Assembly (NCBI GenBank): GCA_025056465.1
Contig: JANWVU010000006.1
Span: 1-40,148, forward strand
Length of the DNA stretch: 40,148 nucleotides
Reading direction: 5' to 3'
Source of the DNA: Verrucomicrobiia bacterium
Lineage (GTDB): Bacteria; Verrucomicrobiota; Verrucomicrobiia; Palsa-1439
The notes under the pieces were generated by a model. The model saw only the letters and a program-made list of their open reading frames with translations, did not search any database and was not told the origin of the DNA. This document shows, one piece after another, positions 22,112 through 38,549 of this stretch (position 1 is its first letter; each line of letters opens with the position of its first letter). The translations under genes were made by a program, and so were the position numbers.

Positions 22112-24034
22112 TCAGTTCATTTGCGGCAGGACGATGCCCCGCATGATGACGCGTTGGCAACTGACGAACACCAGCAGGGTGGGGATCATGGCCACGACAA
22201 GCGCCGCCACGCGGATGTGCTCGGGGGCGGTAGCATTGAGATCGTAAAGCCACACCATGAGCGTCCACATGTTGGGGTCTTGGCAGACGGTCAACGCAAA
22301 GAGGAATGCTCCGTAGGCGGCCGTGAAGGTGATCAGCGCGATGTAGGCAAAGACCGGTTTGCAGAGCGGTACGGTGATCTGGTAAAACATGCGCAGCTCG
22401 CTGGCGCCATCGAGTTGACCGGCCTCGTACAACTCGCGAGGTAGCGTGTCGAAGAATCCTTTGAGGATGAAAATGCTAAAGCCGTTGGCCATCCCCGGCA
22501 GGACCAGTGCTGCGAAAGTGTTGAGCAGACCGAGGTCGCGAAGCAACAGGAAATTGGGGATCATGGTCACCTCGGCGGGGAATGCCATGGTCGCAAGCAA
22601 AAACAACAACACTTTATATGCGTACGACAGGTTGAACCGCGACAGGGCATAGGCGCAAAGCGGGTTGACCGTCAAGGTGATAACGATCGCCAACAGGATA
22701 TAGATGACGGTGTTGATTAGGGCGCGACCCTTAGTGAAAATGAAGCTGAACACCTCCACGTAGTTGGTGCGGATGAAATACCAACGCCACGCGCCGGGAT
22801 TGTCAGTCACTTCCTTCCATTCCCAAACTGCATGTGGAATAACGATGTCGTCGAGTCGGCCAAATTGTGTGCCGAGTCTGCGATTGATTTCTTCCAACGA
22901 GCCGCCGTATTCGCGGAGAAGCCAGCGGCGAAACTCGACGGTGGCGTTGCGCAAGGTGACGTTGCGGATGGATAGGCGGGGCAGGTCCGCACGCGCATCG
23001 CGTAGAAAATCGAGCAAGTCACTTTGCCGAATGCCCTCCAACATCTCGCCGGTAGGCCAAGGTACTTCATCAAAACTCCGGTAATTTGTGCCGTAGGTTG
23101 CATTCAACTGCGCGATGCTGCCACGTCTGGCCTTCAAGTACGACCGGTACTCTTGCAGTCCGCCTTCATTGATTTCGAGGAGACGCAAAGGCCACTTGCG
23201 ACGCACGAAATCCTCCCACAATTCTGCGAGCAGCGGGTGATTCGGCAGGCTTGGGGGCAGCGAGATGTCCGAGAAATCGCGATACTGGGTGCCCAGTCGT
23301 TCATTGAGGCGCGCGATATTGCCGTCGGCGACGAACCGCAAATGATCGATCCATTTGCGCGTGCCTTCAAAGGGCACCCGTTGCCATACGGGCAATAGGG
23401 GCTTGTAACGTAGGTAAAGTCGGTAACGCGAATGGTAGACCGGTGCCCAGTCACGCGAGCTGATCAGCTCGACCGGGACGGATACCTCGGCCCAGTAGTC
23501 GAATGATTGATCAATGGCACGGTTCAAGTCGGTGAGCGATGCGAATTCAGTCTGGAGCCATGCTTGGAATCCTCGGTTGACCGGACCGACCAAGCCTCCT
23601 CGGGAAAGGAAACCGGCTTGGTAACAATCTGTCGAAATGCCGTAGGCGAGAAACTCTCCGTAAGCAGCCACCAGCCGTTGCATGGCGGGGTCGGTCGCCT
23701 GCTCGCGCAGCCGGAGTTGGCGTGCCATCTCTGCAACCGTGCCCGTGCGCACATCCACTCGCGATAGCTCGTAGCGATACAAATCTTTTAGGGCCGAGAG
23801 ATCGTTGTAGTACTTGTCGTTTAGGAAGCGCGCGAACAATGCCGTGTCGTCATACAGAAACTTCGGCACGATCCGGTAATCGGAGACGTCGGCTTCATTG
23901 CTAATCGATCCGGCAAGCATCAGTAGAAACGGTCCAATCATGGTGATCGAGCCGGTGACTAGCAGCAGATACATCAGGGCGAGGGTTACCCTCACGCCCA
24001 GGGTGCCTCGACCAACTCTGCTGATAACCGGCAT
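22112..24034 (-). CDS. MalG-type carbohydrate ABC permease with ~380-aa extracytoplasmic insertion
   Basis: TM1 VTLALMYLLLVTGSITMIGPFLLMLAGSIS, long insertion, then canonical permease with EAA loop RELYEAGQLDGASELRMFYQITVPLCKP. Start MPVISRVGR at 24034, 2 bp after the upstream TAG. Confidence 0.88.
   Translation of the reverse strand: MPVISRVGRGTLGVRVTLALMYLLLVTGSITMIGPFLLMLAGSISNEADVSDYRIVPKFLYDDTALFARFLNDKYYNDLSALKDLYRYELSRVDVRTGTVAEMARQLRLREQATDPAMQRLVAAYGEFLAYGISTDCYQAGFLSRGGLVGPVNRGFQAWLQTEFASLTDLNRAIDQSFDYWAEVSVPVELISSRDWAPVYHSRYRLYLRYKPLLPVWQRVPFEGTRKWIDHLRFVADGNIARLNERLGTQYRDFSDISLPPSLPNHPLLAELWEDFVRRKWPLRLLEINEGGLQEYRSYLKARRGSIAQLNATYGTNYRSFDEVPWPTGEMLEGIRQSDLLDFLRDARADLPRLSIRNVTLRNATVEFRRWLLREYGGSLEEINRRLGTQFGRLDDIVIPHAVWEWKEVTDNPGAWRWYFIRTNYVEVFSFIFTKGRALINTVIYILLAIVITLTVNPLCAYALSRFNLSYAYKVLLFLLATMAFPAEVTMIPNFLLLRDLGLLNTFAALVLPGMANGFSIFILKGFFDTLPRELYEAGQLDGASELRMFYQITVPLCKPVFAYIALITFTAAYGAFLFALTVCQDPNMWTLMVWLYDLNATAPEHIRVAALVVAMIPTLLVFVSCQRVIMRGIVLPQMN
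22835..23572 (-). repeat. Four ~70-aa protein repeats in the MalG-like insertion
   Basis: FQAWLQTEFASLTDLNRAIDQSFDYWAEVSVP (23572-23474); WIDHLRFVADGNIARLNERLGTQYRDFSDISLP (~23353-23255); EYRSYLKARRGSIAQLNATYGTNYRSFDEVPWP (~23152-23054); EFRRWLLREYGGSLEEINRRLGTQFGRLDDIVIP (~22936-22835). Confidence 0.75.
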
Positions 24035-24036
24035 GG

Positions 24037-26841
24037 CTAATCCCGTTGGGCCGTAGTGAAACGCACATTGCGCAAGACGCGCAGTTGATAGACGGTGAAA
24101 CCAACCAACGCCGCGCCGATGATCCACGCAACGGCGGTGGCGTAGCCGAATCGCAAATAGGCAAAGGCGTTGTACCAGACCTCCATGCCGAGCACGTGCG
24201 TGCCATCGGAGGGGCCGCCGCCGGTCATCACAAAAATTCCCTCCCAACTGCGGAATGCGCCGATGAAATGGCCGACGAAGTTAATAATGATCAGGGGCTT
24301 CAAATACGGCAGCGTGATGCTGAACACTTTGCGCCACGGACCCGCACCGTCGAGGTCGGCGGCCTCGTAAATGTCTTCGGGTATGCTTTTGAGTGCGGCG
24401 AGGTAGATGATGCACCCGGGCCCGATACCGGCCCAAATGGAAGGGATGATTACGCAAATCATGGCCAACAACTGCGAACGAGTGAGCCACGCAACTGGCT
24501 CGCTGGGCTTGACCAACCCCGCTTTGATCAATAACGAGTTCAACAGACCGTCGGCATTGGGCGAGAACATCCACAGCCACAGATAGGCCACCACCAAACT
24601 GCTCATCACAGCCGGCAGGTAAAAAATGACGCGAAACAACAATTTCCCTCGCGGGATTTCGTCGAGGATGATTGCCAGAAAAATGGGTGGGAAAAACGTC
24701 AGGCTCAACTGCAGTAACACCCACAACAACGTATTCACGACCGCCTTGGCAAACAGCGGTTCGGTGAACACCTTCACGAAATTATCCAGCCCCACGAAGC
24801 GGCTACCACCCATAATTTGGTAGTCTTGAAAAGCGATGATGGCGCCGCGGGCCAGTGGATAATAGTTCCACACCAGCACACTCAGCAGGGCCACCGCCAT
24901 GAAGGCAAAAGCGGTTAGATGGATACGCGGCGGGTGACGGTGGGGGAATAGGTTACGGCGCGAGTCGGTCCGGTATTCGCGAAGGATGGCCCGCGCGCCC
25001 AACACGCAAGCCGCTGCCACGACAATCACGACACCGAGGGCATAACGCCGGTATCGCTGCAACTCGGTGGCGGGAATTTCGTCGAGCATCCGTCGTTTCG
25101 CCCGCTCGATGCTGAGAGCGATCGCGGCCTCAATGGCGGCGGTGTCGGCGCGTAGCATCGCCACGTCGTGCTCGCGGAGCTCACCTTTCTCCGTCCATTT
25201 CGCAATCAATTCGTCGTCGCGTCCACCCATCGCCATGCGCCAGGACGCTCGGATGAGCGGGTTGTTCATCCGCGCGCGGCGCTCGGCAAGCGATGCGTAC
25301 TCAGCAGCATACCGTGCAGGGATTTCGATGAATTCGTAAACATACTGGCAGTTTTTTCCATTTGGCTCGGGCCGACCGGTACGAAATACGTTTTCGTTCG
25401 CCTCGCGCCACTCCCTTGGCACCTGCTCATAGTATTCCTCGAACCCATATTTTTTGAGAAGATCGGGCCGCACATAGATCGCACCGCCGTTTTCGACAAG
25501 CACGCGTGTGCGGATGCGACGGGCCTCGTCACTATTTTGGAACCGCAACCACTCCCACGCCGCGCGTTGCCGGCGAGGGTCGGTGCAGAGCGATGAAATT
25601 CCCCACATGTAGGCGTTGATTTCGTTGGCACGAATCCGCCAGCCGTCCCCGAAATTGACGAGGGCGGTGGCCGGTGCTTGTCGGCCATTGGGAAACAGCA
25701 CCCAACCTTTTTTGGTAGGGTGCGGAAATCGTTGCAGCAAGTCTTCTGGGGACGTCCCTTCCGTGGTCTGGACGGGGCCAGCCGGTAGGGGAGCGACGCC
25801 AAGAATCTCGGGGTCGAGCGGCACACCACCGGCCAACCGCAAATCGGCGGAGTATGCCCACATAAACGCCGCTTTACCTTCAATGAACCCCATGCGCGTT
25901 GGGGTTCGGCCCACATCCATGGCGATGAAGCTGGTTTTGCCCTCTTTGGTGACCTCGGTGGTCATCAATTCGCGCCAAAACCGCACGGCATCGATCGTGC
26001 CGGGAGCATTCCAGGTGACCTGCCACGCGAGGTTGGTGTCGCGTTCGACGATCTCTACGCCGGCTTGCCACAGGAGATCCGCAAAATACCACCCTGCGTA
26101 GGAGGTACTCTGAAAACCGAACTCGCCCTTGATTGGGTCGGTCAGCACGCGGCTGTATTCGATCATTTCCTCCCATGTTCGTGGCGGGCGCACCTCAAGA
26201 CCCGCCGCCTCCAAAATGGCGGATTTCTCGCGGAGTACGTCTTTGCGGTAGTAAAGGGCCATGGCCAACTCTTGTTCAGGCCAGGCCCACACATGCCAGG
26301 TTCCTTGCGGCCCAGGTCGGTAAATGGTCTCCCACGTGTGCCGGTTCAGGCCGATCCATTCGGGATCAATTTGATCGAGCGTCAGTGGTTGTGGACACGC
26401 AATGCCGCGACGGGCACATTCCTCGCGGGCATAATCGAGGACATACTCGTCCAAGGGTCTGAGAAAGTTTTGGCGCACCCAGTTATCAATGACACGGAAA
26501 TTGACGTAGATAATGTCACCAGCCGTTCGCCCGGCCATGGCCATTAGCAACGAAGCTTCGGCTGCCTTGCTGCCTGCCGGCAACCGAATGGTGCGCGAGG
26601 ACTGAAAGCCGTATTGCGGGAACTTTTGTAGAAAGGCCAGCACAACTTCGGCTTGGGCCTTTTCCTCCGGGGTGCGGGCATCGCGACCGGGAGCGCTGAC
26701 TCCACCCCACAAGCCGGTAATCTTCAATAGAATACGCTCGTCCTCGGTCGCCCGAACCGTGCTGGCGATCATGGTCAGCCCTGCCACGAGGCAGCTCGCC
26801 AGAGGATGGCAACGGCGGAAGAAGAGTTGGATGCTCGCCAT
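24037..26841 (-). CDS. Extracellular solute-binding protein fused to MalF-type ABC permease
   Basis: N-terminal signal peptide and type-1 SBP (PRTWEEMIEYSRVLTDPIKGEFGFQS; GKAAFMWAY), then a TM tether VVIVVAAACVLGARA, then a MalF-like permease with EDIYEAADLDGAGPWRKVFSITLPYLKP. One uninterrupted ORF; start MASIQLFFRR at 26841 preferred over GTG 26862. Confidence 0.9.
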   Translation of the reverse strand: MASIQLFFRRCHPLASCLVAGLTMIASTVRATEDERILLKITGLWGGVSAPGRDARTPEEKAQAEVVLAFLQKFPQYGFQSSRTIRLPAGSKAAEASLLMAMAGRTAGDIIYVNFRVIDNWVRQNFLRPLDEYVLDYAREECARRGIACPQPLTLDQIDPEWIGLNRHTWETIYRPGPQGTWHVWAWPEQELAMALYYRKDVLREKSAILEAAGLEVRPPRTWEEMIEYSRVLTDPIKGEFGFQSTSYAGWYFADLLWQAGVEIVERDTNLAWQVTWNAPGTIDAVRFWRELMTTEVTKEGKTSFIAMDVGRTPTRMGFIEGKAAFMWAYSADLRLAGGVPLDPEILGVAPLPAGPVQTTEGTSPEDLLQRFPHPTKKGWVLFPNGRQAPATALVNFGDGWRIRANEINAYMWGISSLCTDPRRQRAAWEWLRFQNSDEARRIRTRVLVENGGAIYVRPDLLKKYGFEEYYEQVPREWREANENVFRTGRPEPNGKNCQYVYEFIEIPARYAAEYASLAERRARMNNPLIRASWRMAMGGRDDELIAKWTEKGELREHDVAMLRADTAAIEAAIALSIERAKRRMLDEIPATELQRYRRYALGVVIVVAAACVLGARAILREYRTDSRRNLFPHRHPPRIHLTAFAFMAVALLSVLVWNYYPLARGAIIAFQDYQIMGGSRFVGLDNFVKVFTEPLFAKAVVNTLLWVLLQLSLTFFPPIFLAIILDEIPRGKLLFRVIFYLPAVMSSLVVAYLWLWMFSPNADGLLNSLLIKAGLVKPSEPVAWLTRSQLLAMICVIIPSIWAGIGPGCIIYLAALKSIPEDIYEAADLDGAGPWRKVFSITLPYLKPLIIINFVGHFIGAFRSWEGIFVMTGGGPSDGTHVLGMEVWYNAFAYLRFGYATAVAWIIGAALVGFTVYQLRVLRNVRFTTAQRD

Positions 26842-26848
26842 ACTTTGT

Positions 26849-28159
26849 TTAGGGCAACGCACCGCGCGCTTGCAGCGCCTGCCAGACGGCTTTGACCGCG
26901 CAATACATAGCGGCCTCGCGCGCAGTCCATCGCCGGTCGCGTGCTGTGTCGAACACCAATGCGCAGCGCTCGCGCATGCGCCGTTCCAAGCGGCTCATGA
27001 CTTCCTCGAGAGGCATTTGCTCGGCTTGCGTCTCTTGAGTGTATTCCAAGTAGGAAACGAACACCCCACCGGCGTTGCACAATATATCGGGGATGACCTC
27101 GATCCCGCGCCGTTGTAAAATTCGGTCGGCTTGGGGTGTGGTGGGACCGTTGGCACCCTCGGCGATGTAGCGCGCCTTGATCCGCGATGCGTTTGAGCCA
27201 GTGATTTGGTTGCCGGTAGCGGCGGGCACGAGGATGTCGCAGGGTTTCTCCAACAATTGAGCGTGGGCGACCGTGGGGGCGGCGCGGCATCCTTTCAGTG
27301 AACCATGTTGTGCGGCGTAGGACAACAGCGCCTCCAGTGGCAGGCCGCGCGCATCGTAGAAGGCTGCATAAGCATCGCAGACGCCGATGATCGAAGCGCC
27401 GGCTTCGGCGAGCGCACGGGCCGCGACCGAACCGACGTTGCCAAAACCCTGCACGATGACATGCGCGCCCGGTAGGCTATCGCCGCGTCGGCGCAGCACC
27501 TCGGCGACGGCGAGGGCCACACCGCGCCCGGTAGCCTCACGTCTCCCAGGAATTCCGCCGAGGATGACGGGTTTACCGGTGACATACGAGCCCTGCGTAG
27601 TGGCGTAACCGAGCGAGTAGCTGATCGCGTCTTTGATGTAGCCCATGTCGGTCTCGTTGGTACCCATGTCGGGTGCCGGCACGTAAACCAGCGGATGGAT
27701 GTGCCGGTGGGCGGTGCGGGTGAAACTGCGAATCAGCACCTGTTTATCGTCGGGCTTGAGGCGGGTGGGGTCGGCGACGATGCCACTTTTACCACCACCG
27801 AACGGCACGCCGATGAGCGCACATTTCCAAGTCATCTCCATCGCGAGGGCCGTGACGTCATCGAGCGTGACGGTTGGGGACATCCGGATACCGCCCTTAC
27901 AGGGACCAAGCGCGTCGTTGTGTTTCACGATGAAGGCGCGGAATGTGTGGATGCGGCCGTCGCTGAGTTGCGGAGACAACCGCAGCTCGGTGCGTTCTTT
28001 CGGTGTGCGGAGTTTTGCCGCCCAATCGTGCGGAATTTCGCGATCCAACAGCGCCAAGGCACGGTCGAGATTCGCCATGGCGTTGTCGTACAGAGATTCG
28101 TTTGCGCCCACGGGGTGAGTACGGGTTGTGGGCAAATGCCGGTATTCAATCCTTTTCAT
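26849..28159 (-). CDS. gdhA: Glu/Leu/Phe/Val dehydrogenase (glutamate dehydrogenase family)
   Basis: GPCKGGIRMSPTVTLDDVTALAMEMTWKCALIGVPFGGGKSGI; PAPDMGTNETDMGYIKD; VIVQGFGNVGSVAARAL. Confidence 0.93.
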   Translation of the reverse strand: MKRIEYRHLPTTRTHPVGANESLYDNAMANLDRALALLDREIPHDWAAKLRTPKERTELRLSPQLSDGRIHTFRAFIVKHNDALGPCKGGIRMSPTVTLDDVTALAMEMTWKCALIGVPFGGGKSGIVADPTRLKPDDKQVLIRSFTRTAHRHIHPLVYVPAPDMGTNETDMGYIKDAISYSLGYATTQGSYVTGKPVILGGIPGRREATGRGVALAVAEVLRRRGDSLPGAHVIVQGFGNVGSVAARALAEAGASIIGVCDAYAAFYDARGLPLEALLSYAAQHGSLKGCRAAPTVAHAQLLEKPCDILVPAATGNQITGSNASRIKARYIAEGANGPTTPQADRILQRRGIEVIPDILCNAGGVFVSYLEYTQETQAEQMPLEEVMSRLERRMRERCALVFDTARDRRWTAREAAMYCAVKAVWQALQARGALP

Positions 28160-28207: not shown

Positions 28208-31027
28208 CTATCCCGTTTTGCGGGTTTGGTTCTTTGCGCGTGCTTCGCTGCCTCTCGGTCCGATGGCTTCCACCGTCAGTGCGCGCGCCGGAATGTGGAA
28301 AAAGTATCGGCCGCTGGTGAGCTGACATCTCGTCGTGTTTGCCTCCTGCCGGATATTGGAGACACCCTCCGCTTGGACCAACGGGCAACCGCTCTCGGTC
28401 ACTGTCTCTGGTTGTGTCGTGGGCAAGATGACGGTCGCAGTGGAGTTGGGTGGAACTTGGAGCGAGAGCCGGAAATGTTTTTTCGCGAGGCGCCAGTGAA
28501 TCGTAATGCGCCCGTGAAGGGAATCGAACGTGGCGCGGGCCCACCGTAGCCCACCGCCTAAGCGTGGATGAACCAAAAAATGCTGGTAGCCTGGTTGGGA
28601 CGGATCCAGTTCCAACCCAGCGATGCAACGGTAGAGCCACTCCCCCACTGCGCCGTAAGCGTAGTGGTTGAAACTGTTCATTTGTGGGTTTTGGAAGCCG
28701 CTGTCGTGGCGCCACCCATCCCAACGTTCCCAGATGGTGGTGGCACCCTGGCGGATGGGGTAACCCCAGGAGGGAAAGTCCTCGTTCAGGAGCAGCGTAT
28801 AAGCAAGGTCAAGTTGGCCGATGGCGGTGAGCACGAAGAGCAGATACGGCGTGCCGACGAAGCCGGTGCTGAGGTGATTGTTGCGTTCGCGGATGCGTTC
28901 GACGAGGCGTTGCGCGGCGCGCGTGTGCGCGCGAGGTGGAAGCAGGCCGAAATGCAACGCCAGCACCAATGCAGTTTGAGAGTCGCCCACCAATCGGCCG
29001 GTGGGCGTGATGAATTCGCGGTTGAATTGGGCTTTGAGTTTGCGGAATTGACGCCGATAGTGAGCAGCATCGCGCGGTTGGTCCAACACGGCTGCGATGC
29101 GGGCGAGCAAGTCGAAACAGTGCGCGGTGAACGCCATGCTGATGAGGTCTTTTGGAGTGGGATCATCGAGATTGAGCCAGTCTCCGTATCCATGGCGAAG
29201 CTTGTGGTCCACGTTTCCGAGAAAAGCCGCGTAACGTTTCAGCGCCGGATACATCCGCGCCAACAGGCGCGTGTCGCCGTAGCAGGAGTACATCGTCCAG
29301 GGACAAATCACACCCGCATCGGCCCAAGCAGGCCCGCCATCCTCGCCGTAAGGCCCGTTTAGCCCAGAGCCGCGCAATACATCGGGCGCGACGCGAGGAA
29401 AGGTGCCGCAAGCCGTTTGCGCATCGGTGAGGTCCGTCAGCCACTTGGTGAAGAAGCCGGCCACGTCGGCGTTGAAGGCTGCCGTGCGGCAGAACACCTG
29501 GGCGTCGCCGGTCCAACCGAGTCGCTCATCGCGTTGGGGACAGTCGGTGGGCACTTCGAAGAAATTGCCACGCTGGCTCCACCAGATGTTGTGTTGGAGT
29601 TGATTGAGCATGGAACTCGAGCAGGCGAACTGTCCGGTAGGACGGAGGTCGGAGTGCACCACGATTCCGGTAATGGTCTCGAGAGTCGGTTGGCCGGGGA
29701 AGCCGGTCACCTCGACATACCGGAACCCGTGATAGGTGAAGCGCGGCTCATACACTTCCGTGCCGTTGCCTTTGAGTGTGTAGCGGTCGGTGCACTGGGC
29801 GGAGCGGAGGTTTGCGGTGTAGATGGTCCCGTCTGGATTGAGCATTTCGGCAAAGCGCATGGTGATGGTTGTACCTGCGGGGCCGGTAACTTCGAGACGC
29901 GCCCAGCCGACCATGTTTTGCCCCATGTCAAAGACATACACTCCCGGCCGAGGCTCTGTTAGGGAGACGGGTTTGCGTTGCTCAATTTTACGCACCCGGG
30001 GGGCGGCGGAAGCATTTAGTTGGATGCGGGATTGTCTGACGATGCGAACTGGCAGCCAGTCGCGGTCGTCAAAACCAGGTTGGCACCAGCCCAACCATTC
30101 ACGGCGCGCGTCGTAGATCTCACCGTTGTAGATATCGGAGGCGAGAATTGGGCCGGTAGCGCACTTCCACGAATCGTCCGTCACGACAAGGACGCGATCG
30201 GCGTTCGCACATTCGATTTCCAGTTGAGCGAACAACCGCGGGGTGTCGCCGTAGTGGTTGCGATGGTCTCGCCGTACCAGATAGCCGCAGTACCAACCGT
30301 CGCCGAGAATAGCACCGAGCACGTTCTCGCCAACCTGTAACAGCGCAGTTACATCGTACGTTTGGTATTGAACGCGACGCCGGTAGTCTGTCCAACCGGG
30401 GGTGAAATAATCCGTGCCGACGCGCTGGCCGTTAATCCATGCTTCGTAGAGGCCCAACGCGGTGATGTAAAGACGGGCGCGACTCACCGGGGCCTCGAGG
30501 GTGAACGACCGTCGCAAGAAAGGGCAGGGGCCGCTCTGAGTGTGATCGGCCGGGAGGCTGCTTTCAATCCAGCGTGCTTGCCAGTCGGAACGACGTAATA
30601 ACCCCATCTCCCACGAAGCAGGAGCACTCCATGGCGACGGCTGATTGTGTTGGTCCCAAACACGAACGCGCCAGTAACAACGTTGGCGCGACCGTAATGG
30701 CGGGCCGCCGTATTCGACATGTGTGTTTTGGTTGGATGCAACGCGCCCGGTATCCCAGAGCACCGGCTTCATCTTCGGCGAGGCAGCGACGACGATTTGG
30801 TAGGCGGTTTGACGCGCGCCGCGTCGCTCGTCGTCGAGCTGCCAAAACAAACGAGGTTGGGGCTCGTCCAAACCTAAAGGGTTTTCGAGGTACTCACACC
30901 GCAGGTTGATTGGTGGCTTGGGTGCCACGCGGGATTTGGTAGGGGGGCTCGCGGGCAGGGGCAACAGTTTTCTCAATGGCGGGTGGTCAGTAAGAGATTT
31001 TTGTGCAATGAGGGTTGACAAGCTCAT
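28208..31027 (-). CDS. Alpha-L-rhamnosidase (GH78)
   Basis: NLRCEYLENPLGLDEPQPRLFWQLDD; VLGAILGDGWYCGYL; DMGQNMVGWARLEVTGPAG; FFEVPTDCPQRDERLGWTGDAQVF; TIWERWDGWR. ATG at 31027 preferred over TTG 31066. Confidence 0.92.
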   Translation of the reverse strand: MSLSTLIAQKSLTDHPPLRKLLPLPASPPTKSRVAPKPPINLRCEYLENPLGLDEPQPRLFWQLDDERRGARQTAYQIVVAASPKMKPVLWDTGRVASNQNTHVEYGGPPLRSRQRCYWRVRVWDQHNQPSPWSAPASWEMGLLRRSDWQARWIESSLPADHTQSGPCPFLRRSFTLEAPVSRARLYITALGLYEAWINGQRVGTDYFTPGWTDYRRRVQYQTYDVTALLQVGENVLGAILGDGWYCGYLVRRDHRNHYGDTPRLFAQLEIECANADRVLVVTDDSWKCATGPILASDIYNGEIYDARREWLGWCQPGFDDRDWLPVRIVRQSRIQLNASAAPRVRKIEQRKPVSLTEPRPGVYVFDMGQNMVGWARLEVTGPAGTTITMRFAEMLNPDGTIYTANLRSAQCTDRYTLKGNGTEVYEPRFTYHGFRYVEVTGFPGQPTLETITGIVVHSDLRPTGQFACSSSMLNQLQHNIWWSQRGNFFEVPTDCPQRDERLGWTGDAQVFCRTAAFNADVAGFFTKWLTDLTDAQTACGTFPRVAPDVLRGSGLNGPYGEDGGPAWADAGVICPWTMYSCYGDTRLLARMYPALKRYAAFLGNVDHKLRHGYGDWLNLDDPTPKDLISMAFTAHCFDLLARIAAVLDQPRDAAHYRRQFRKLKAQFNREFITPTGRLVGDSQTALVLALHFGLLPPRAHTRAAQRLVERIRERNNHLSTGFVGTPYLLFVLTAIGQLDLAYTLLLNEDFPSWGYPIRQGATTIWERWDGWRHDSGFQNPQMNSFNHYAYGAVGEWLYRCIAGLELDPSQPGYQHFLVHPRLGGGLRWARATFDSLHGRITIHWRLAKKHFRLSLQVPPNSTATVILPTTQPETVTESGCPLVQAEGVSNIRQEANTTRCQLTSGRYFFHIPARALTVEAIGPRGSEARAKNQTRKTG

Positions 31028-31076
31028 GACGGGTTTGATATTGGTAAAGCCAAATAAATAACACAAGCCAATTGTG
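31028..31076. promoter_or_regulatory. AT-rich divergent regulatory region between GH78 and GntR/LacI regulator
   Basis: Direct repeats AAGCCAA at 31047-31053 and 31065-31071 (18-bp spacing); TTGGtaaagCCAA inverted repeat 31041-31053; CAATTG 31069-31074. Confidence 0.45.
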
Positions 31077-32207
31077 ATGAAGCCTAGTTATCAGAATCTT
31101 CGAGATCGAATCCTTCAAGATTTCTGGACACGGAATGGAGTGAAAGTCGGCGACAAGCTACCCACTGAACGCGAGCTGGAGAAGCTCTACCAGGTAAGTC
31201 GACCGACGATCAGCAAGGCCATCGCAGCGCTAGCGGCCGAAGGTTGGGTGACGAAACGGCAGGGGAGTGGGATCTATGTTGCGTCGGTTTGTAAGCCAAC
31301 TCCGCCTCACACAGACCGACAGCAGCCGCGGATTGGATACGTCACGATGAGTTTGCGTCCGGTGTTGGCGCATCGGGTTTTTGAGGGTATCGAGCGGATT
31401 GCGGCACGACATGGCTACGCGGTGGAAGTGGCCTCCACGCAGTGGCAATACGAGGTGGAGCGTCAGAAAATTGCCTGCATGCGAGAACAAGGGGTCCAAG
31501 GGGTGGTGTTGTATCCAGGCGGGCGTGACAAAAGCGTGGCGGAATACTTGGGGCGGGAGTTTGGCGATTTTCCAATCGTTGTGGTCGACATGTATCAGCC
31601 GACGATGCGTCGTCCACATTTCATCTTCGACAACTACCAAGCGGGTCGGGAAATGACGGAGTACCTCTTGCGGGAGGGCCGTACCGAGATCGCATTTCTC
31701 AAATACAGCGACCGGCTCGCGTACCGGTCGGTGGACGATCGGTTGCTGGGGCATCGGCGAGCGTTGGAGGAGGCCGGGGTGCCTTGGGACCCCGCGCGGG
31801 TGGTATCGTTTGAGGGGACTGGTCCGTTTGGTCGCGATCATTGCCAAGCTTTGGAGCGAGTCTTGTCGCTGCGACCCCGGCCCACCGCGTTGATCACGCC
31901 GTATGACCCTTACGCACATGCGAGCATCGTTTGGTTGCGTCAGCGGGGTGTGTCGGTGCCGGACGACATTTTGGTGGTGGGTTTTGACAATTTGCAGGAG
32001 GAACCATGGTGGGAGCGGTTTCCCACGACCAGACCTGATTTCGTTCGCATGGGTGAGCGGGCGGCGGAGGCGTTGTTGGAGCGTATCCGCACGCGGAATT
32101 TTGAGCCAACGGAAGTAGTGCTGCCCTGTCCGTTGGCGATTCCTCAGCCGACAACGACGGAGGTTGTTGGGGCAGGGGACGGCTTGCGCACGGGAGGCGG
32201 AAGCTAG
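31077..32207 (+). CDS. GntR-type wHTH regulator with LacI-like sugar-binding effector domain
   Basis: GDKLPTERELEKLYQVSRPTISKAIAALAAEGWVTKRQGSGIYVA, then PRIGYVTMSLRPVLAHRVFEGIERIAARHGY...PDDILVVGFDN. ATG at 31077; a GTG at 31074 is also possible. Confidence 0.93.
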   Translation: MKPSYQNLRDRILQDFWTRNGVKVGDKLPTERELEKLYQVSRPTISKAIAALAAEGWVTKRQGSGIYVASVCKPTPPHTDRQQPRIGYVTMSLRPVLAHRVFEGIERIAARHGYAVEVASTQWQYEVERQKIACMREQGVQGVVLYPGGRDKSVAEYLGREFGDFPIVVVDMYQPTMRRPHFIFDNYQAGREMTEYLLREGRTEIAFLKYSDRLAYRSVDDRLLGHRRALEEAGVPWDPARVVSFEGTGPFGRDHCQALERVLSLRPRPTALITPYDPYAHASIVWLRQRGVSVPDDILVVGFDNLQEEPWWERFPTTRPDFVRMGERAAEALLERIRTRNFEPTEVVLPCPLAIPQPTTTEVVGAGDGLRTGGGS

Positions 32208-32259
32208 CGAAGCCGGTCGGGTCTCAGGGCAGCAAAAACGAGAGGGAGGAGACGAGACG

Positions 32260-32901
32260 ATGAGGAGAATAGTGAATAGCTGGGCGCGGCGACTGAGGGT
32301 TGTCGCGATGGTGGCCCTTGGTATGGTGGTTGTGGCACCGGTCTCTGCTACCGTGATTGTCAGCGCGGGAAGCGCGACCGGTATCGCAAATGACTGGGAT
32401 GCGTTTATCAACGGGGTGATCATCTTTGGGGAGGGTGCTCCAACCAACAACACGATCCACGTGAAGTTGGATCTTGGAGTGCCCAAGAAAGTCAACACGA
32501 TTATCCATGTCAATCGCACCAATGCGACGACGTTGCTGAATCCATTCGCAGCGAACATCTGGGTGGCGGCGGATGAGTCGAGTCTGACGTTCAATCCTAA
32601 CAATCCGGCGACCTACTCGATCAAGATATTTGATGGGTTGATCACGCCGACGAACTTTAACATTGGCGTGGCCCGGCAGACCGGGTTTGGTACCGGCGTG
32701 TATTGGGAGCGGCGTTATTTCTTGATCAACTACACCAGCAACTTCCTCGGCTCGATCGATGGCACGGCCAACCGCGACCGAGTGCATTTGGGCGACATCC
32801 AGATCTTGGAGGTCGTACCGGAGCCGTCGGCACTCTTGCTGTTGGCGGTGGGTGGGTGGCTGATTACCTGTTGGCGTCGTCGTGCCGCGTCTAAAGGATG
32901 A
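32260..32901 (+). CDS. PEP-CTERM sorting-domain surface protein
   Basis: N-terminal signal peptide [31 protein letters not shown]-terminal [28 protein letters not shown]. Purine-rich SD GGGAGGAGA upstream. Confidence 0.88.
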
Positions 32902-34307: not shown

Positions 34308-37300
34308 ATGCGAAAATCAATTTTGGCCTTTGGCCTCGTGTTGCTGGCGGTGTCCGCCGTTCCAACCATGTACCCGCAATCGACAAACTTAGCGCCCAAC
34401 CCTGGTTTTGAGTTGCCCGAACTTGCCGGCTACCATGTGCAGGCGGTGGCTACTTTAGATGAGTCGAACCCCTACGAGGGCCGGTACGCTGTGCGCCACC
34501 AAGCTGTACCGGGTCACCAATGGAATTGCATTCAGATGGCCGTGGACAAAGCGATCCCCGTGCGCGCCGGCAAACTTTATCGACTGAGCGTCGCCAGTCG
34601 GAATGACCTGACCAACGGAGCGGCTTTTTTCGGTCTGCGTGAGGTCAACGAGGCCGATCGGACCATTCGATACCAATGGCAGCCGGTGCCCCTAGGCCAA
34701 GCGACGTGGCAACGACACTCGTTGCTAGCGCGTCCGAGCACCCAAGCGGTCGCATTGCAAATCTACTTTCGGATCACCCCCGAAGCGACTGCCGGCTCGG
34801 TCTGGTGGGATGACGTGAGACTGGAGGAGCTAACCGACATCCAAAAACTTGTCGTCCCCCCGCCATGGCGTCTCACCCCGTTGGAAACCTTGGTGTTCAC
34901 CCGTGAAAACAACGCCACAGCGCCCGCACGCCTACCAGTGCGCTTGGAGGTTGATCGAGACGGACACGGTGGGACCCTGACGCTTACGCTCCAGCGTGAC
35001 GTCGCGAGCACGCAACTCGACCCTACCAGCGTGATTTGGAGCCACAAAGAACGCTTCGCGACAACCGGGCCGGTAGAGTTGTTCGTACCCACCTCTGATC
35101 TGACCGAAGGTCGCTATCGCCTGATCCTGTCAATGGCCAATGCGGATGGCCAGACCCGGTGGGACGTGGTCAAGCCCTTGGCCGTTGTGCGCCCGATGTC
35201 GTACCCCTCGTTGCCGCCCGTGCACCGCAGCGAGATTAGCCCTGATGGTCTTTTGCTTGTGAATGGGGAACCCTTTCTCTCGGTGATGTTCTATCACAAC
35301 CCGCCAACGGTGGCTGGTTTGAAAGAACTGCGGGAGGTTTACGGTGCGACGACCGCACAGGTGTGGGGTGGCGACAGTGTCGACTTGCTTTGTCAAATGG
35401 TCGACACCGCGTGGCAGGCCGGCTTGTATTCATGGCCGGTATTGTTCCATCCGGCTATGTACGATGCCGGACAGAAAAAATGGAAAGATGGTCCTCTGAC
35501 CGAAGCGGTCAACCGTCTCAAAGACCATCCCGGTGTGATCGGTTGGGACTTGTACGACGAACCGGATGGACAGGGCGTGCCCGTCGAGGAGGTGCGGCGC
35601 GTGTTTGAGCTGGTGCGACGGTTGGATCCCAATCATGTAATCTGGGTGAACTTCTGTCTGCCGGAAAAATTCGCCGCATTTGCAGGGTTGTCCGATATCG
35701 CTTCGTACTGTCACTACCCGCTTCCCGCGCGTGGGCTGCGCCCGATTCGCGAGCACAATCGCGCCATTCGCGCGGCGTTTCCCGGCAAGCCACTGCTCAG
35801 CGTGCTGCAAACATACGGGTATCCCGAAACCGGTATGCCGACCCCAGCCCAGTTGCGCGCGCAAGTGTACCTCAACATTTGCGAGGGCATGACGATGTTC
35901 CATTTCTACTCGTGGGACGACCCGGCCCCGCACGCCTCGCTGGCGACCAACCCCGAGTTGCGTTCCTACACGCGGCTGCTCACTCACGAGGTGCACAGCC
36001 TAAGGCCGTTTTTGTTCTCCGTCGAGCGCATCGAGGCAGCGATCAGTGGGGGCGCGCCCGATCAACTGGTTTGGCTGGCCAAGCAAGTTGGAGACTCGGT
36101 CGAGCTCATTGTGGTCAATCCCGAGCCCGAGCCGGTACCCCAAATCCGTATCAGCCTGCCCGGACGCAAGATTTTGTCGGCGGAATCGCGGTTTGATGCT
36201 CCGCGCAAGTTGACCGTTCGCCGCGGCGCCCTGCTCGATGCCCTGCCGGGGTACGGCGTCGGAGTGTACCGGCTACGCACCTCGGGCGGGGCGTCCCCGC
36301 GCAGCCACCGAGCTCACGCCGAGCCCCCGCGCTGGGAAATCCGGGTTGTTGATGGCACGCCCACGTTGTTTGTCGACGATCAACCACAGCGGTTGTTCTA
36401 TAATCAGTGCTTCTTCTCGCAACCGGAGCAGGAGCCGTTTCTTACTTACAATCGGGAAATGGCGGAGCAGGGAGGGTTTCGCGTGTTCACGGTCTCGCTC
36501 TCCAAGGATCGTGACAATTGGTGGCTTGGGCCGCGCCGGTACGATTGGGGGCGCGTGGATGAACGCATCCGCGCCACGTTGCGCGTCGCTCCGCAGGCAG
36601 CCGTCATCTTGTATGCGGAACTGAACCCGCCGGACTGGTGGATGGAGAGCCACGAAACGGAATTGGTGTGGTATGAAGGGGGATTGCCGGCAGGTCCGCG
36701 TCACGTGGGGCTGATTGATTCGTTGATCGCACCGTCTTATGCCTCTATGGTCTGGCATCGTGATACGGCGGAGATGCTCTGCGACCTGCTCGCCCATGTG
36801 CGGGAAGCGGATTACGGCGAGCGCGTTATCGGCATCACGCTCGTGGGCGGGCAGGATGGGCAATGGTTTCACTACGGCGATAAGGGTTCGTCCGTGCCGC
36901 ACCCTTTTCGTGCGGACAACATCAGGGAAACGTTTATTCCCGACTACAGCCCGCGCATGCTCGAGTACTTTCGGGACTATCTACGGCAAACTTACCGGAC
37001 CGAGGCAGCGCTTCGAAATGCGTGGGGTGATTCCAGGGTGCGGTTTGACACCGCGCAAATTCCGCCCATCCGCGAGCGGTTGTCGGCGATGCCGGGGCAA
37101 ACGGTGTTTTGGGATCCCCAGACGGAACGACGGTTGATTGATTACACGCACTGTTACTACCACGTTCAATCGGACGTCATCCTTGAGCTCGCACGCGCGG
37201 TGAAAGCGAAGTTCGGCTCGCGGTTCCTTGTTGGTGCATACGCAGCACTGGCTTGCTCCGATTATGCCAACGGCATGGGAATTCGCGGCCGCAGCGAGCT

Positions 37301-38549
37301 GGCGCGCCTGCTCGCTTCACCCGACCTCGATTTTCTTGTCTCGGTGGGGTACTCGCAGCGATTTCTCGGTTTTCCCGGCAACTTCACCAACCTAAACGGC
37401 TCGATGGCGCTGCACGGCAAACTGCTGATTGAGGAGCTCGATCATCGAACTTTTTTGGCGAAGGACGACCGCGCGAAAGTGCCTGTGCATGGGTATGTGC
37501 CCACGTTGGAGGAAACGATTGCGATGTTCCGACGCGATTTTTGTGGGGTGATCACGCGGCCGGTGAGTGCTTGGTACTACGACATGTTTGGCGGCCACTA
37601 TCATCATCCCGAGTTACTCAGGATGTTCCGCCAATTTCACGAGATCGCGCGGAAGGCGGTGGCAACCGGTAACTGTGCCCGACATGAAGTAGCAGTGGTT
37701 GTGGATGATCGTTCTTACGAATACCAACCGCTGTTCGACCTGTGTCTCAACGGCAACGTGGTGAACTTCCAGCGGACGCACTTGGGTCGAATGGGAGCGC
37801 CGTACGATCTGTTTTTGATGTCCGACCTGCAGGATGCGGATCTTCGACCTTACAAATGCATCATTTTCCTCAACACGTTTCTCATGACGCCTGAAGATCG
37901 GGCGATGCTCCGCAGCAAGGTATGCTGCGGCGGGCGGGTAGTGTGTTGGACATTTGCGCCAGGTTATCTCGATGGCCGACGAAAATCTCCCGAGCTGATC
38001 ACCGACATTACCGGCATCGAAGTGATCCCGAATCGTACCGGCTGGAGCACGAAAGCGGTGCGGGTGGGCGATCGCATCACGTGCGTGCCATACCCGTACC
38101 GCCAGGCTCCCTATGATCCCACTCCACCCGCCTACTATGGCACAGAGGGATTCGCCATCACGGACCCAAACGTAATTCAGCGCGGGGAATTCACAGACGG
38201 CACCGGTTGTGCCCTGGCGGAGAAGAAAATGGACGGTTGGCATTCGGTTCTCAATTGCAGCCCTTATTGGGATGCAGAGCTACTCCAACAAGCGTTACGG
38301 CAAGCTGAGGTGCACATTTACGATGACGACCCAACCGACAACATCTACGCGTCGGGGCGATTTGTCGGTATTCACACGTCTACGGCGGGGTGTAAAATCA
38401 TTCGCCTGCCGCTGGCTGCCGATGTTTACGACGTGTTTGCCGCCAGGGAGATCGCGCGGCAGGTCACGCAGTTCGCCGTGACACTCCCGGCTCGTGAGAC
38501 GGCTTTGTTTTTCCTCGGCTCAGAGGTTGAGTGGCGACAGTTGACTTGA
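34308..38549 (+). CDS. 1413-aa multidomain glycoside-hydrolase-like protein: CBM-like N-terminus, TIM-barrel domain, C-terminal GH42-like domain
   Basis: NLAPNPGFELPE... CBM-like; DHPGVIGWDLYDEPDG TIM-barrel; AELNPPDWWMESHETELVW and YFRDYLRQTYRTEAALRNAWGD; LLIEELDHRTFLAKDD. Confidence 0.8.
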   Translation: MRKSILAFGLVLLAVSAVPTMYPQSTNLAPNPGFELPELAGYHVQAVATLDESNPYEGRYAVRHQAVPGHQWNCIQMAVDKAIPVRAGKLYRLSVASRNDLTNGAAFFGLREVNEADRTIRYQWQPVPLGQATWQRHSLLARPSTQAVALQIYFRITPEATAGSVWWDDVRLEELTDIQKLVVPPPWRLTPLETLVFTRENNATAPARLPVRLEVDRDGHGGTLTLTLQRDVASTQLDPTSVIWSHKERFATTGPVELFVPTSDLTEGRYRLILSMANADGQTRWDVVKPLAVVRPMSYPSLPPVHRSEISPDGLLLVNGEPFLSVMFYHNPPTVAGLKELREVYGATTAQVWGGDSVDLLCQMVDTAWQAGLYSWPVLFHPAMYDAGQKKWKDGPLTEAVNRLKDHPGVIGWDLYDEPDGQGVPVEEVRRVFELVRRLDPNHVIWVNFCLPEKFAAFAGLSDIASYCHYPLPARGLRPIREHNRAIRAAFPGKPLLSVLQTYGYPETGMPTPAQLRAQVYLNICEGMTMFHFYSWDDPAPHASLATNPELRSYTRLLTHEVHSLRPFLFSVERIEAAISGGAPDQLVWLAKQVGDSVELIVVNPEPEPVPQIRISLPGRKILSAESRFDAPRKLTVRRGALLDALPGYGVGVYRLRTSGGASPRSHRAHAEPPRWEIRVVDGTPTLFVDDQPQRLFYNQCFFSQPEQEPFLTYNREMAEQGGFRVFTVSLSKDRDNWWLGPRRYDWGRVDERIRATLRVAPQAAVILYAELNPPDWWMESHETELVWYEGGLPAGPRHVGLIDSLIAPSYASMVWHRDTAEMLCDLLAHVREADYGERVIGITLVGGQDGQWFHYGDKGSSVPHPFRADNIRETFIPDYSPRMLEYFRDYLRQTYRTEAALRNAWGDSRVRFDTAQIPPIRERLSAMPGQTVFWDPQTERRLIDYTHCYYHVQSDVILELARAVKAKFGSRFLVGAYAALACSDYANGMGIRGRSELARLLASPDLDFLVSVGYSQRFLGFPGNFTNLNGSMALHGKLLIEELDHRTFLAKDDRAKVPVHGYVPTLEETIAMFRRDFCGVITRPVSAWYYDMFGGHYHHPELLRMFRQFHEIARKAVATGNCARHEVAVVVDDRSYEYQPLFDLCLNGNVVNFQRTHLGRMGAPYDLFLMSDLQDADLRPYKCIIFLNTFLMTPEDRAMLRSKVCCGGRVVCWTFAPGYLDGRRKSPELITDITGIEVIPNRTGWSTKAVRVGDRITCVPYPYRQAPYDPTPPAYYGTEGFAITDPNVIQRGEFTDGTGCALAEKKMDGWHSVLNCSPYWDAELLQQALRQAEVHIYDDDPTDNIYASGRFVGIHTSTAGCKIIRLPLAADVYDVFAAREIARQVTQFAVTLPARETALFFLGSEVEWRQLT

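Follow-up and report, generated by a model that had tools for sequence, protein, structure and literature searches.

A predicted MalG-type permease from a Verrucomicrobiia bacterium with five tandem units related to subdomain H of family 42 glycosidases in its first extracytoplasmic loop

Organization of the locus

The DNA analysed here, called the window, is a stretch of 40,148 nucleotides from a Verrucomicrobiia bacterium (GenBank assembly GCA_025056465.1, contig JANWVU010000006.1). Its minus strand carries two adjoining genes of a sugar importer (Table 1). The downstream gene encodes a permease with a Pfam BPD_transp_1 match above the cut-off (PF00528, E=6.1e-16, residues 475-633), and AlgM2, SugB and MalG are the top PDB matches of its core in both sequence and fold searches. 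The product is thus predicted from its sequence to be a MalG-type (CUT1) permease of a type I ABC importer, as the first-pass annotation had proposed, and would take part in ATP-driven sugar transport. The EAA coupling loop is intact (EAGQLDGASELRMFYQITVP in the translation), and its D542, G543, A544 and E546 are invariant in 47 relatives. The protein had earlier been numbered from a TTG at 24247, but the conserved N-terminal motif of the relatives begins at the methionine of the ATG at 24034; judged from this motif, the ATG is almost certainly the true start.

AlphaFold2 and hydropathy place TM1 and TM2 (residues 438-456) on either side of a long insert, in agreement with its earlier assignment to the extracytoplasmic side. 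The first periplasmic loop has about 370 residues extra, compared with a total of mostly 35-60 residues in ordinary MalGs of the same phylum, which bears out the statement that the classical loop is short. Since a short loop is usual but not strictly defining, the protein is a variant and still a MalG-type member.

Table 1. Features of the importer locus and neighbouring genes in the window; residues are numbered from the ATG of the protein concerned.
Feature	Coordinates	Strand	Basis
MalG-type permease with extracytoplasmic repeat array, 640 aa, ATG start	22112..24034	-	translation, Pfam, PDB matches
TM1 helix, residues 12-44, hydrophobic core 23-41	23903..24001	-	AlphaFold2 model, hydropathy
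Insert of five tandem subdomain-H-like units, residues about 46-415	22790..23899	-	repeat profiles, AlphaFold
Unit 0, residues about 62-145, most degenerate	23600..23851	-	hhalign vs other units E=8e-7 to 1.6e-9
Unit 1, residues 151-222	23369..23584	-	repeat profile E=2e-8, hhalign
Unit 2, residues 225-288	23171..23362	-	repeat profile E=2e-9; hhalign to unit 3 E=7.5e-23
Unit 3, residues 290-361, bears Pfam GH42 match (293-345)	22952..23167	-	repeat profile E=4e-15; PF02449 positions 151-207
Unit 4, residues 364-411, joined to pre-TM2 helix	22802..22945	-	repeat profile E=5e-11, hhalign
Permease core BPD_transp_1 with cytoplasmic EAA loop ELYEAGQLDGASELRMFYQITVPL	22136..22612	-	Pfam, translation
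Partner: signal peptide, solute-binding protein, extra TM, MalF-type permease, 934 aa, ATG 26841	24037..26841	-	Pfam, hydropathy
Glu/Leu/Phe/Val dehydrogenase-like gene	26849-28159	-	sequence
GH78 rhamnosidase gene	28208-31066
Regulator with GntR DNA-binding domain and LacI-type sugar sensor	31074-32207	+
Short protein with PEP-CTERM sorting motif at its end	32164-32901	+
Open frame of 1413 aa, no NCBIfam match	34308-38549	+

The gene just upstream encodes the fused binding protein that had been postulated as the partner of the permease, with matches to PF01547 (E=1e-17) and PF00528 (E=5e-14). An extra transmembrane helix at residues 602-620 lies ahead of MalF TM1 at 640-658. The array permease is directly downstream of such a binding protein-MalF fusion in the window, and almost every relative whose context is intact shows this order; 52 pairs were assembled. 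In one clade (e.g. G154, G172) the fusion gene is located elsewhere in the genome. In several relatives (L068:3825-6599, L070:3437-6376) the MalF half has an extra stretch with two more predicted TM helices, which is absent from the window protein. Candidates for the MalK-type ATPase are three TOBE_2 proteins of 365-405 aa found elsewhere in the genome and none in this contig.

A GH78 rhamnosidase gene lies near the permease, and the regulator gene divergent from it probably controls this locus; together they suggest that the substrate is a rhamnose-containing oligosaccharide. The dehydrogenase-like gene that adjoins the fusion, also seen at L074:2103-3365 by Pfam, has no obvious link to sugar import. 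The neighbours of the relatives vary by genome and include GFO/IDH/MocA oxidoreductase, glycosidases (GH38, GH127, GH123), DNA ligase and FtsZ; besides the fusion partner, no gene in these neighbourhoods is constantly linked to the pair.

The repeat array

Repeats were detected with an iterated profile built on the relatives, which gave 0 matches in shuffled sequences. As a control for circularity, the family alignment was divided by column position into five unit profiles, which were built independently and cross-compared by hhalign. All ten pairings matched (E 8e-7 to 7e-23, probability 92-99.5%), and the N-terminus and transmembrane core gave no match to the unit profiles in the same control. 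The first-pass annotation had described four units at a spacing of about 70 aa; the repeats themselves are significant, but they number five, and the spacing holds for the last four (about 70-72 aa) and not for the first two (about 89 aa). Unit 0, which the first-pass annotation did not list, is weak to the repeat profile in the window permease (E=0.2, near residue 67) and significant in many relatives (down to 3e-10).

With 47 relatives, AlphaFold2 modelled the whole permease at a pLDDT of 86 and a pTM of 0.82, and the insert alone reached 92.2 and 0.90, so that the insert is predicted with confidence as one autonomous domain. Most units are modelled as three helices, A to C, followed by a strand of three residues, with a loop and short turn between helices B and C; helix A corresponds to the stretch F-x-x-[YW]-L-x-x-x-[YR]-G and helix B to L-N-x-x-x-G-T. 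Helices are found at residues 63-75, 79-86 and 116-132 of unit 0 and 151-163, 167-174 and 202-213 of unit 1, with strands at 138-140 and 219-221, respectively.

By repeat profile the number of units among relatives ranges from about 2 to 7. In the standard-length class, the nearest unit in other proteins has the same index in 130 of 140 cases; because units keep their positional identity across proteins, the array is taken to be old and did not expand recently. Near-invariant unit positions in the family alignment belong to the structural core only; aromatic positions of the surface type are conserved neither between units nor between relatives.

Kinship with subdomain H of GH42

Pfam detects GH42 (PF02449) in unit 3 at E=2.1e-10, above the gathering threshold, and in 40 of the 47 relatives, over profile positions 151-207 of 376 only. 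Profile searches of the PDB with the insert retrieved the GH42 LacZ 9ta3 (E=1.2e-9), GH14 3voc (2.7e-5), GH167 9whd (1.1e-4) and GH42 1kwg (E=1.4e-4, at residues 154-264), and the match to 9ta3 starts at the YGC stretch right after the acid/base strand. A Foldseek search with the whole permease returned permease cores only and was uninformative on the insert. With the insert alone there was no overall match in the PDB and none at E <= 0.001; the top matches were almost all to GH42 or GH42-like, GH14, GH50 and GH167 enzymes, matched locally, and GH167 9whd superposes over 37 residues at 0.6-0.7 A.

By these profile matches the unit is homologous to GH42 subdomain H, the helical segment after the beta-4 acid/base strand, which is also present in GH14 and GH167. 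The hallmark of this subdomain, helix-LN-helix-loop-helix after the beta-4 strand, is seen in both the unit folds and the sequence homology. The first-pass annotation named no described function for such a repeat in an ABC importer; the kinship of the repeat can be recognised, and the insert aligned with no characterised permease domain. A complete GH42 TIM barrel with its two catalytic glutamates is absent: the Pfam match is partial, and in Foldseek the insert attained TM-scores up to 0.16 with no barrel-wide match. GH42 beta-galactosidases (PDB 1kwg, 9ta3; PF02449 about 151-207) have one subdomain H in a catalytic TIM barrel, whereas here it recurs five times in tandem, with neither a barrel nor catalytic residues. 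The same helix-LN-helix-loop motif of GH14 beta-amylase and GH167 (PDB 3voc, 1b90, 9whd) is likewise a single-copy enzyme segment.

In GH42 enzymes subdomain H lies at the subunit interface, where trimerisation lets it contribute to the active-site pocket (PMC5725463), and the GH164 counterpart contacts the neighbouring chain (PMC7105311); by origin the unit is therefore an interface module. Phe199 of a Bifidobacterium GH42 enzyme, 39 positions past the acid/base glutamate, reaches the active-site tunnel of the neighbour (PMC12887932), and its position would put it inside the subdomain H module.

Distribution and evolution of the array family

Of 289 genomes sampled from the phylum, 103 gave a match at E <= 1e-30; a handful of the lowest-scoring matches are ordinary MalGs. 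Core scores separate the two groups, with at least 194 bits for the array family versus at most 116 bits for ordinary MalGs. The array also occurs in four further phyla, Armatimonadota, Planctomycetota, Hydrogenedentota and Omnitrophota. It is common in Verrucomicrobiota and ancient. A second array-family MalG is found on C11 of the same genome (L009:7267-8901), with a 545-aa open frame and three recognised units. Its partner, upstream to about 12000, is split over several frames and has an in-frame TAA inside the binding protein, which points to a decaying copy or an assembly error.

The closest named relative, from a Verrucomicrobia bacterium (L039), is 68% identical to the window permease. 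The two inserts have no indels over 367 aa, with 57% identity and a pN of 0.28 versus a pS of 0.76 (only pN and pS are quoted, as dS is saturated), and the MalG core is 85% identical. The array is under purifying selection. No part of the complex changes faster in sequence than the insert, whose mean identity is 27% (binding protein 38%, MalF 52%, MalG core 63%); its form is conserved.

Evolutionary distances of the insert and the binding protein are correlated when MalF and the MalG core are controlled for (partial r = 0.36, permutation p = 0.001). Since this is no stronger than the partial correlation of core and binding protein (0.54) or of insert and MalF (0.42), it reflects shared inheritance rather than specific contact. 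The distance matrices lend weak support to a jointly evolving unit, no more, and give the binding protein no special standing as the partner of the insert.

Loop length and fusion of the binding protein

MalG loci were classified in a sample of 59 genomes, with 200 aa as the boundary between loop classes. A fusion adjoins 18 of the 22 assessable loci with loops of at least 200 aa and 2 of the 28 with shorter loops (Fisher p = 6e-8, the loci not being phylogenetically independent). In a second fusion lineage (L159:5301-7082, L162:5038-6879, L163:4857-6518, L164:7497-9248, L165:4418-6241 and L168:5081-6862) MalG bears an insert of about 270-300 aa at this position, for which profiles gave no match to the array of the window permease and searches of Pfam and the PDB gave none either. 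The second half of this insert looks rich in beta-strands. In a third fusion lineage (L236:3926-5530, L238:4579-6390) the same loop holds a different insert of about 220-280 aa with sub-threshold helix-turn-helix-like matches only, which is odd for an extracytoplasmic loop.

Two fusions of the same phylum (L210, L224) have as their partner a MalG with the usual short loop. Tethering therefore does not demand an insert, and the link between insert and fusion is strong but not obligatory. Smaller MalG loop inserts of about 80-150 aa occur alongside separate binding proteins in L172, L215, L229 and L232. At two loci (L234:5275-7200, on C55 of the same genome, and L228:4178-6250) the MalF and MalG halves form one polypeptide and the binding protein is separate.

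Discussion

The best solved relatives of the permease core are the alginate importer AlgM1M2SS (PDB 4tqu) and SugABC-LpqY (PDB 7cad, 8hps), which, unlike the importer of the window, have a separate binding protein and no large loop in either permease. With MalG of the type I maltose importer of E. coli, MalFGK2-MalE (PDB 2r6g chain G), the window permease shares the MalG fold, the EAA loop and a first periplasmic loop that comes after TM1 (profile E=1.1e-18). The two importers differ in that the binding protein here is fused to MalF via an additional TM. They also differ in the location of the extra domain, which is in MalG here and in MalF there, and the five-unit helical array is unrelated to the latter. 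The E. coli domain, P2, is an extra periplasmic domain of MalF that contacts the binding protein. By analogy, the location of the array and its linkage to the fusion are compatible with an equivalent of MalF P2. In OpuA-type importers, binding domains are fused to the permease at its C-terminus. Their binding protein is tethered as well, but they belong to a different permease family and have no extra domain in the other half; an example is that of Lactococcus lactis (PMC11065425).

Our preferred reading, tentative and plausible rather than probable, is that the array serves the tethered binding protein as a docking and capping scaffold. Docking was one of two roles raised in the first-pass annotation, the other being substrate binding, and it has gained comparative support. 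With the binding protein tethered to MalF, MalG would have grown a scaffold of 370 residues from five subdomain H units of GH42/GH14-type glycosidases. The scaffold would hold the tethered binding protein above the translocation path and may help to seal the sugar route, much as MalF P2 of E. coli does with the maltose-binding protein. That the array touches the binding protein and that it acts as a cap are what we infer from the origin of the unit as a pocket-completing interface module, from the extracytoplasmic position of the array beside the tethered protein, and from its distribution with tethering. A fast-evolving insert in which only structural positions are near-invariant fits a co-adapting interface, and not a conserved active or sugar-binding site. 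The linkage to the fusion, the association with loop length and the two further fusion lineages with different large inserts at the same site count in favour of docking; the short MalGs of L210 and L224, the non-specific distance correlation and the smaller inserts that accompany separate binding proteins count against it.

The main rival is a carbohydrate-binding platform, in which several units hold an oligosaccharide near the membrane and pass it to the tethered binding protein, raising its local concentration or adding specificity. The parent module of the units is part of glycosidases, and in GH42 it borders the sugar pocket of the adjacent subunit (PMC5725463; Phe199, PMC12887932); the 367-residue insert has many aromatics (11 W, 20 Y and 16 F), and some relatives lie beside GH38, GH127 and GH123 genes as the window permease lies near GH78. 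We nevertheless consider it less likely than docking, given that the conserved positions are those of the structural core rather than exposed aromatics, and that neither the catalytic strand nor the acid/base residue of GH42 is conserved in the array family. That the domain itself is a residual or active glycosidase is very remote: the Pfam match and the sequence LLEINEGG before unit 3, which resembles an NE acid/base motif, might be taken to speak for it, but only part of the profile is matched, the array has no nucleophile strand and no barrel, and the resemblance is lost in the closest relative (LIQVNVDGL) and in the family consensus. A catalytic function of the array was rejected for want of a barrel and of a conserved acid.

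The array might instead link the importer to some other partner in the periplasm or outer membrane, such as a glycosidase, a porin or peptidoglycan, and so anchor it where oligosaccharides enter. A large autonomous domain, confidently predicted and variable in unit number, in a phylum of double-membraned hosts would suit such a role; the idea is improbable, however, as only the fusion partner is almost always present and no other gene is constantly linked. Less probable still is a neutral passenger, an array without a specific role in a loop that tolerates insertion. Several sequence-unrelated inserts do occupy this site in the phylum, but the absence of indels, the excess of pS over pN, the preserved unit index and the retention of the insert across many families and five phyla all speak against this reading.

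A broader proposal may be made, and we offer it as a possibility short of the confidence given to docking itself: tethering may have selected for a MalG docking domain, a demand that unrelated inserts in this loop would have answered independently at least three times within Verrucomicrobiota. The insert described here would be a five-fold glycosidase subdomain turned from an inter-subunit pocket module into a clamp for the binding protein.

No description of MalG inserts or fusions of such design was found in the literature searched, the scope of which excluded subscription papers and preprints, so novelty is unproven; nor was a tandem array of GH42 subdomain H found in any protein in the papers or solved structures available. 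The transporter kind, the permease fold and the repeat unit are each already known, and it is their combination that appears to be new. As the Pfam GH42 match exceeds the gathering threshold, automated annotation may label array permeases as beta-galactosidases.

If the proposal is true, these importers have a design absent from textbook systems, in which a tethered binding protein is combined with a scaffold on the other permease half that reuses part of a glycosidase, and they make the role of extracytoplasmic permease domains in binding-protein docking testable. The family is widespread in Verrucomicrobiota and present in several other phyla, and so bears on the feeding of environmental polysaccharide degraders.
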